35,324 nt of DNA from Thermoprotei archaeon (GTDB lineage Archaea > Thermoproteota > Thermoprotei > Thermofilales > B15-G2). The notes under the pieces were generated by a model, which was given only the letters and a program-made list of their open reading frames with translations, was not told where the DNA came from and searched no databases. Shown piece after piece: positions 24,589 through 31,651 of the stretch (within the stretch, counting starts at the first letter, position 1; the number at the start of each line of letters is the position of its first letter). The translations under genes and the position numbers were made by a program. Location of the stretch: assembly GCA_003650815.1 (NCBI GenBank), contig QMSB01000010.1:1-35324 (forward strand). Reading direction: 5' to 3'.

Positions 24589-24873
24589 TTATTCGCTCTG
24601 AGACAATTTATATTTTCTGCTAGATTGGAAACATTCTTTGCAGAAATAGATATGCTCAGAAACTTCTATTGCGCAGTCCTCACATATTTGCCTTTCACAA
24701 TTTTCACAAAGAGCTATAGAAAGGTTTTTTCCGCATATCCTGCATAAGGTATCCGCACAACAGGCGCATACATCCTTTTCCTTATCAAAATCCAGTTCGC
24801 AGACTTTCCTACCGCAGAGGGGGCACACGTAGAGAGTATTTACTGAATTGAGACAAATATCGCATACACCCAT
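24589..24873 (-). CDS. Cys-rich zinc-finger protein
   Basis: MGVCDICLNSVNTLYVCPLCGRKVCELDFDKEKDVCACCADTLCRICGKNLSIALCENCERQICEDCA...FCKEC. Start set to MGVCDIC rather than the longer ORF, which would overlap the divergent gene. Confidence 0.75.
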   Translation of the reverse strand: MGVCDICLNSVNTLYVCPLCGRKVCELDFDKEKDVCACCADTLCRICGKNLSIALCENCERQICEDCAIEVSEHIYFCKECFQSSRKYKLSQSE

Positions 24874-24931
24874 AACAGCTACCAAAAATGCTAAGCGCAC
24901 ACTATTTAAAAGACTTTTGGGAAAAAGACTT

Positions 24932-25921
24932 ATGATACTCACTACCTATGTCGGAAGTTTTCCTCTAAGCTACTCAAAAGACAACATTCTAAGAATACTC
25001 AGAGATGTAGAAAAAATACCCATAGATTATCCATGTTATCCTCAGTTAAAAGACTTTATTTTCCAGTTTCTTCAACCAATTTCGCTAAAGAATCCGAGTT
25101 TAGTGACTAAAGACAACGAGTATATTCTAAAGTCGAAGAGCCTAAGGGTATTAGATGAACCCATAGCCGTGGACGACCTATTACTGACGCTGAATTATTT
25201 CAAAAATAAGAAGACTATTAAGGGCATAAGAGCCTGTGTTACTGGGCCCTTTACTTTAGCTTCACGTATAGTAGTTTCAGGAAAAGAAAATGCAGTAGGG
25301 CTAAGGAAGACGGCTCTGACTGAGCCAGACGTAATTAATGCACTAGCGGAGACTATGTCTAATATATGTAAATATTTTGCTGAAGCGGGAGCGGTGTGGG
25401 TTAATATAGATGAGCCTATACTCTCTGTTATTGTAGGCAGAAGAAAAATACTCTATGGACTATCACAGGAATTTATTATAGAAACATTAAATGCTACTAT
25501 AAGTAGGTGTAATGCTAGCATAAGAGGTATACATGTCTGTGGAGTATTATCACCTCTTCTGAGAGATACCTTGCTCATGACAGACTTTAAAGTACTTGAT
25601 CACGAGTTCAAAGATACTCCAGCCAATATCGAAATATTTGATAAACAAACTCTAGAAAAATACGACAAAAAAATATCTTTCGGATGCATATCATCAAAAA
25701 ATACTAGAGTAGAGAACATAGAAGAAACCGTAGCACTAATTAAGAAAGCAGCCAATATAATAGGCATAGAAAACATAGGTTTTATAAAACCTGACTGCGG
25801 TTTTAGAGGACTTAAATCTATATGTGGAGAAGAAGAAGCCTACAGAATATCTATTAAGAAACTTAAGTTACTGAAGACTGCGCAAGAGATTATGAATAGA
25901 GAATATGGATTTAGCGTATAG
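24932..25921 (+). CDS. Cobalamin-independent methionine synthase (MetE C-terminal-like, archaeal short form)
   Basis: ILTTYVGSFPLSYS; ACVTGPFTLAS; VNIDEPILS; GIHVCG; FIKPDCGFRGL. ATG at 24932 used rather than the tool start 24848. Confidence 0.85.
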   Translation: MILTTYVGSFPLSYSKDNILRILRDVEKIPIDYPCYPQLKDFIFQFLQPISLKNPSLVTKDNEYILKSKSLRVLDEPIAVDDLLLTLNYFKNKKTIKGIRACVTGPFTLASRIVVSGKENAVGLRKTALTEPDVINALAETMSNICKYFAEAGAVWVNIDEPILSVIVGRRKILYGLSQEFIIETLNATISRCNASIRGIHVCGVLSPLLRDTLLMTDFKVLDHEFKDTPANIEIFDKQTLEKYDKKISFGCISSKNTRVENIEETVALIKKAANIIGIENIGFIKPDCGFRGLKSICGEEEAYRISIKKLKLLKTAQEIMNREYGFSV

Positions 25922-25970
25922 TCAGCTGGAATGCTCTTCTTCACCAATCGGCGAAGGACGCGCTCATCAT
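25922..25970 (-). ncRNA. Box C/D sRNA, predicted 23S rRNA domain I guide
   Basis: On minus strand: C ATGATGA (25970-25964), guide gcgcgtccttcg, D' CCGA (25951-25948), ttg, C' GTGAAGA (25944-25938), guide agagcattccag, D CTGA (25925-25922). Confidence 0.8.
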
Positions 25971-26407
25971 TCACTATAGGTCCCAAAAAATTCTTCAAAA
26001 ACTGAAAGAATAGTTTTTCTTTTTTCTTCTGAAATAGTGTTTTCAATTTTCTTTAAATAAATCTTCCCTTTCTTAGATAAAACAAGTATCTTTGTAAAAG
26101 GCTTAATATAGTTTGCAGTCACATAGCCGTATGCTAGTAAACCTCTCTCTACAAGTTTCTTAATAGCATTTAGTGTTTTAGGACCCATTACATATGTTCC
26201 ATTAATATCTAGAAGGTCTATTTCATTGGTTATAATGCCTCGTTTTCTCAAGCGGGCTAAGAATTTTTCTAAGGATTCTTCATCAACTCCTTTCTTAAAT
26301 AATGATACTGTGTAGAGAAGGAGCTTCTCTGTAGTACTGAGCTTAGCCATAAAAATCACTGTGGTTGAGTATCTCGAAAATATATTTTTTACGCATAATG
26401 CTCTCAA
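25967..26407 (-). CDS. Hypothetical, possibly winged-helix protein (start may be the internal MAKLSTTEK)
   Basis: Helical EKLLLYTVSLFKKGVDEESLEKFLARLRKRGI...LNAIKKLVERGLLAYGYV; long ORF without competing ORF. Confidence 0.6.
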   Translation of the reverse strand: MRALCVKNIFSRYSTTVIFMAKLSTTEKLLLYTVSLFKKGVDEESLEKFLARLRKRGIITNEIDLLDINGTYVMGPKTLNAIKKLVERGLLAYGYVTANYIKPFTKILVLSKKGKIYLKKIENTISEEKRKTILSVFEEFFGTYSE

Positions 26408-31338: not shown

Positions 31339-31596
31339 ATGAGTATTGCCCTAGAGAGAATAGTTATCGATATAGTAAAAGAGATAATCGACCAGAATAA
31401 AGGAAATGTCGTCTGCGTGAAAACAAGGGATGTTGCCAAAAAACTCGAAAGGCGAGGTATAAAAGCTTTTCGTTCAAAGGCTGTGTATAGAATAATAACT
31501 AAAGTTCTTATAGAAGTTTTTAATGCTAAAGCAGTCAAGAGAGGAAGAATATATAAGTACTTCATATATAAAAAACCCGTAAAGGAGATAGCATGA
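31339..31596 (+). CDS. Hypothetical small basic protein (possible winged-helix DNA-binding)
   Basis: Amphipathic helical, Lys/Arg-rich 85 aa ORF; preferred over the antisense ORF 31272-31655 because of coding-like composition. Confidence 0.5.
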   Translation: MSIALERIVIDIVKEIIDQNKGNVVCVKTRDVAKKLERRGIKAFRSKAVYRIITKVLIEVFNAKAVKRGRIYKYFIYKKPVKEIA

Positions 31597-31602
31597 AGAG
31601 CA

Positions 31603-31651
31603 ATGATGATAGTCATGCCGACAGAATAATGAAGAATTCTGGGGTAACTGA
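31603..31651 (+). ncRNA. Candidate box C/D sRNA
   Basis: C ATGATGA 31603-31609; 12-nt tagtcatgccga; D' CAGA 31622-31625; ata; C' ATGAAGA 31629-31635; 12-nt attctggggtaa; D CTGA 31648-31651. Confidence 0.65.

Follow-up and report, generated by a model that had tools for sequence, protein, structure and literature searches.

Archaeal C/D box sRNAs (Dennis et al. 2015, PMC4644070; Breuer et al. 2021, PMC7994747) carry C and D boxes, inner D' and C' boxes separated by a short spacer, and two guides of approximately 10-14 nt, and their rRNA targets follow the N+5 rule. About one quarter of their genes overlap the 3' end of an ORF and carry its stop codon, almost half of these having the stop in the C box, and most of the sRNAs overlapping an ORF 3' end are processed out of longer transcripts (PMC7994747). 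They are also under-represented in annotation (PMC7994747). The locus described here shares with this class the four boxes, two 12-nt guides, a 3-nt spacer, the N+5 rule, an rRNA target (predicted in this case) and the overlap with an ORF 3' end with the stop in the C box. It differs only in lineage and in the combination of guides, and no Rfam family matches it. It is an ordinary example of a well-known class, previously unannotated.

The window, i.e. the whole stretch of DNA that was analysed (35,324 nucleotides), belongs to an archaeal MAG (2.0 Mb, 175 contigs). Its minus strand holds a complete C/D box sRNA of 49 nt with 12-3-12 spacing at 25970-25922, in the order ATGATGA GCGCGTCCTTCG CCGA TTG GTGAAGA AGAGCATTCCAG CTGA (Table 1). 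The C, D, D' and C' boxes, the short spacer and two guides of the usual length are all found, and a fibrillarin gene, representing the protein part of the sRNP, is present in the same genome (E 5.5e-103). The flanks TATAG and CTATA could pair as a short terminal stem, for which the indication is weak.

Table 1. Coordinates of the sRNA elements and of the two adjoining genes
Feature	Position	Strand	Remark
C box ATGATGA	25964..25970	minus	exact to RUGAUGA
D' guide GCGCGTCCTTCG, 12 nt	25952..25963	minus	predicted pairing with 23S domain I CGAAGGACGCG, N+5 on E. coli G54 equivalent
D' box CCGA	25948..25951	minus	one mismatch vs CTGA
Spacer TTG, 3 nt		minus	separates D' from C' box
C' box GTGAAGA	25938..25944	minus	one mismatch vs RTGATGA
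D guide AGAGCATTCCAG, 12 nt	25926..25937	minus	no convincing target
D box CTGA	25922..25925	minus	exact; adjoins stop codon of converging plus-strand ORF
sRNA with flanks TATAG (25978-25974) and CTATA (25921-25917)	25917..25978	minus	possible 5-bp terminal stem, weak
Upstream ORF, 146 aa	25967-26407	minus	small protein; stop codon inside sRNA C box
Converging ORF	24848-25921	plus	cobalamin-independent methionine synthase catalytic domain (PF01717)

A four-box descriptor (C exact, D' and C' with at most one mismatch each, D exact, guides of 9-15 nt) was run on the whole window (35 kb) and gave two candidates, 25970-25922 on the minus strand and one at 31603 on the plus strand. On 100 first-order Markov shuffles of the window it gave none. 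The Rfam scan of the window assigned no family to the sRNA above the gathering threshold, a tRNA being the sole match in the window. That the stretch 25970-25922 encodes an archaeal C/D box sRNA is well supported. The initial annotation had proposed a minus-strand C/D sRNA at exactly these coordinates, with its C box overlapping the stop of the upstream ORF, and on both points it was borne out: the first TGA of the C box (25969-25967) doubles as the stop of the minus-strand ORF 25967-26407. What it did not mention is that the D box abuts the stop of the plus-strand ORF 24848-25921. With one stop at each outer box, the sRNA occupies the tail-to-tail gap of two convergent genes.

The stop codon in the C box is an ordinary arrangement, as it is published as common for archaeal C/D sRNAs (PMC7994747). 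The product of ORF 25967-26407 matched no family above the cut-off, and a search for its close relatives found none. The overlap might serve both partners: L7Ae binding or assembly of the sRNP where the upstream mRNA ends, together with sRNA release, would be in competition with the stability of that mRNA or with termination of its translation; we consider this very doubtful. If true, such competition would tie the ORF's expression to ribosome biogenesis.

The E. coli K-12 23S rRNA (rrlH record) carries GATGAAGGACGTGC at nt 48-61, where G54 is the first G of AAGG, and the motif and N+5 site near G54 that the initial annotation had given are therefore right. All 12 positions of the D' guide pair with this sequence, two of them as G-U. 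The earlier claim of a 12/12 pairing with two wobbles to 23S GAAGGACG thus stands for the E. coli rRNA and fails for a genome of the same class (G029), whose motif is CGAAGGACGCGG and with which the guide forms 11 contiguous Watson-Crick pairs and a terminal mismatch (-21.2 kcal/mol). The N+5 nucleotide on the G029 23S is G56, aligned with E. coli G54. This part of 23S domain I is the counterpart of eukaryotic 5.8S rRNA. The motif in other relatives is GAAGG(G/C)CGTGG, many genomes of the class having GGAAGGGCGTGG, and several genomes of the same order have GAAGGCCGTGG, on which the D' guide duplex would break in the middle. We searched the MAG for its own 23S and 16S, and neither is present in the assembly. 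The 5' end of the 23S is also missing from the guide-bearing genomes G030, G007, the Njordarchaeota MAG L129 and L065 (= G025), none of which has both the guide and a known 23S.

Taken alone, the complementarity is only moderately surprising. Of 20,000 shuffled guides, 168 reached an 11-nt Watson-Crick run in the G029 16S and 23S; when the score was loosened to admit G-U pairs, 504 of 5,000 did equally well.

The best support for the target is that a nearly identical guide turns up again in genomes related to this one, which is stronger evidence than the complementarity. Further sRNAs were reached in two ways, from a match in G030 found with BLAST and with a sequence model built on five candidates; as this model mixes phases and families, it was used only to fetch candidates. 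Two genomes of the same class carry the sRNAs ATGATGA AGGGTGCAAACT CTGA GAA ATGATGA TCGCGTCCTTCG CTGA (G030, L196) and, read by eye, ATGATGA AGGGTGCAAACT CTGA GCT ATGATGA GTGCGTCCTTCG CTGA (G027, L199). A genome of the same order (G002, L213) has ATGATGA AAGGTCGGTGGA GCGA GTAG GTGAGCG GCGCGTCCTTCG CTGA between two ORFs; its inner boxes are poorer, and its guide GCGCGTCCTTCG is identical to the D' guide of the window. In four genomes, that of the window included, the guide YGCGTCCTTCG (TGCGTCCTTCG in G027) thus stands directly against a D-type box, D' in the window sRNA and D in the other three, with N+5 on the same G each time. The three relatives therefore resemble the window sRNA in an 11-12 nt guide in the same register with the same predicted methylation site, whereas they differ in having it in the D slot, in the partner guide (AGGGTGCAAACT or AAGGTCGGTGGA) and, where checked, in the neighbouring genes. 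That the partner guides differ agrees with the rapid guide turnover described in archaea (PMC7994747). Reading the G030 and G027 sRNAs in the phase of the window sRNA was rejected, the complete sRNA beginning 26 nt upstream and the guide in question being the D guide.

Among 400 genomes of the phylum, a stricter pattern of C box, guide and D' box matched in 3 and the same pattern reversed, as a control, in none; only G030 and the window carry the window-type guide among these, the third (G025) being of the ambiguous type treated below. The matches listed from a pattern scan of contigs were mostly bacterial chance matches, the useful ones being L065, L148 and L129. The last, on the minus strand of a Njordarchaeota MAG at about 1239-1189, reads ATGATGA GCACGCCCTTCG CTGA TGC ATGATGA GAGAGCTGGTGGA CTGA with no box mismatches. 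Its related guide GCACGCCCTTCG might address 23S domain I, here in another archaeal phylum; since the 23S is missing from that MAG, we keep it as a possible member only.

Since other genomes of the class also have the guide in this register and the G029 23S matches it over 11 pairs, the nucleotide equivalent to E. coli G54 is the likely, though not proven, target of the D' guide. The sRNA could nevertheless be genuine and its D' guide directed elsewhere, e.g. to domain IV of the 23S around E. coli nt 1811, which we consider unlikely. This alternative draws on superficially similar guides in other C/D sRNAs, namely TACACGCCCTT in G007, G025, G001 and G010 (L193, L194, L197 and L198, respectively) and CACACGCCCTT in G017 (L214). 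These D' guides have CG-CCTT in common with the window guide, and they pair with AAGGGTGTGTA in domain IV with N+5 at approximately E. coli nt 1811, while the D guide in G025 and in G017 pairs 24 nt beyond this (approximately nt 1835), so that the design covers two adjacent sites. In contrast to the window guide they may thus target two adjacent domain IV sites, although their domain I duplex is also strong: for G025 and G017 its energy is equal to or better than that of domain IV. In G001 and G010 the N+5 position moves by one, a base being absent before D'. A target elsewhere is also favoured by the number of shuffled guides that reach 11-nt rRNA runs (168 of 20,000) and by the lack of a 23S in the MAG itself. 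Against domain IV, the window guide could form a duplex there only with four G-U pairs, at -10.7 kcal/mol compared with -21.2 on domain I. The bases by which it differs from the other type (CGCGTCC against CACGCCC) match the G029 domain I motif exactly; they are common to G030 and G002, and G027 retains GCGTCC. With domain IV or domain I as candidate targets, the TACACGCCCTT-type guides, which had first resembled compensatory variants of the window guide, are ambiguous by their pairing, and the sRNAs carrying them were left out of the support for the window guide. G007, G025, G017, G001, G010 and G062 had been considered as a family of the window guide and were set aside, as domain IV is complementary to their guides too and, in G025 and G017, the target of the D guide lies 24 nt off. 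A short degenerate guide pattern can thus lump guide families with possibly different targets, a pitfall for searches of this kind.

That the stretch is no RNA gene at all, being either chance box-like motifs round a stop codon or a hairpin (CTTCGCC GATT GGTGAAG) active where two convergent transcripts end, is highly improbable: stop codons do seed C boxes, box-like lookalikes are expected (PMC7994747), the D' and C' boxes are imperfect and the stretch folds somewhat better than its shuffles (z -2.1), but shuffled windows yield no such site, the guide recurs in register in G002, G027 and G030 with another C' box and the hairpin not retained, and a search for a terminator-like pattern found none.

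The second guide had been reported as having no recognised target, and our scan likewise gave none that convinces: in 16S and 23S, nothing past 8 contiguous pairs including N+5 was found for AGAGCATTCCAG. Two weak leads may be mentioned, a 16S site at approximately nt 175 (CTGGAATG in G016 and G013, 8 pairs) and a 23S site at approximately nt 350-365 (CTGGAAAGC, with an internal mismatch). Both sites vary among the relatives, so the D guide may match the organism's own rRNA better.

The second candidate of the descriptor scan is a C/D sRNA at 31603-31651 on the plus strand, also with 12-3-12 spacing (ATGATGA TAGTCATGCCGA CAGA ATA ATGAAGA ATTCTGGGGTAA CTGA), just 3' of ORF 31339-31596. Its D guide pairs at 11 of 12 positions, two of them G-U, with TTACCCCGGGAG in the 23S of relatives (E. 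coli approximately nt 2441), and its D' guide forms 8 pairs with CGGGCATGAC, 17 nt upstream (approximately nt 2422). The two guides would thus address adjacent sites in 23S domain V. Two more conserved C/D sRNAs, with guides TATGCACCTCCG and TCAATCCCGTCG, were met in one family of the class, where the sequence model caught them by their boxes; their loci are L208 (G052), L210 (G053), L216 (G059) and L217 (G056), and L200 (G044) and L205 (G045).

We consider it quite probable that the locus as a whole is a canonical archaeal C/D box sRNA of approximately 50-60 nt, the D' guide of which acts on the 23S equivalent of G54. Transcription would then produce the sRNA as the 3'-terminal part of the upstream mRNA. 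L7Ae would bind the C/D and C'/D' k-turns and, together with Nop5 and fibrillarin, form the sRNP, and nucleases would trim the sRNA ends. With the D' guide paired to 23S rRNA domain I, the fifth guide base upstream of D' would face the nucleotide equivalent to E. coli G54, which fibrillarin would 2'-O-methylate. The boxes and their spacing, the gene context, the recurrence of the guide, the complementarity to the G029 23S and the fibrillarin gene were observed here, whereas we infer expression of the sRNA, sRNP assembly and methylation, as well as the sequence of the organism's own target.

An unannotated C/D sRNA, and with it a second one, is hereby added for a little-studied archaeal lineage. 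The guide occupies D' in one sRNA and D in others that are otherwise unlike it, and it indicates a methylation site in 23S domain I that probably recurs.
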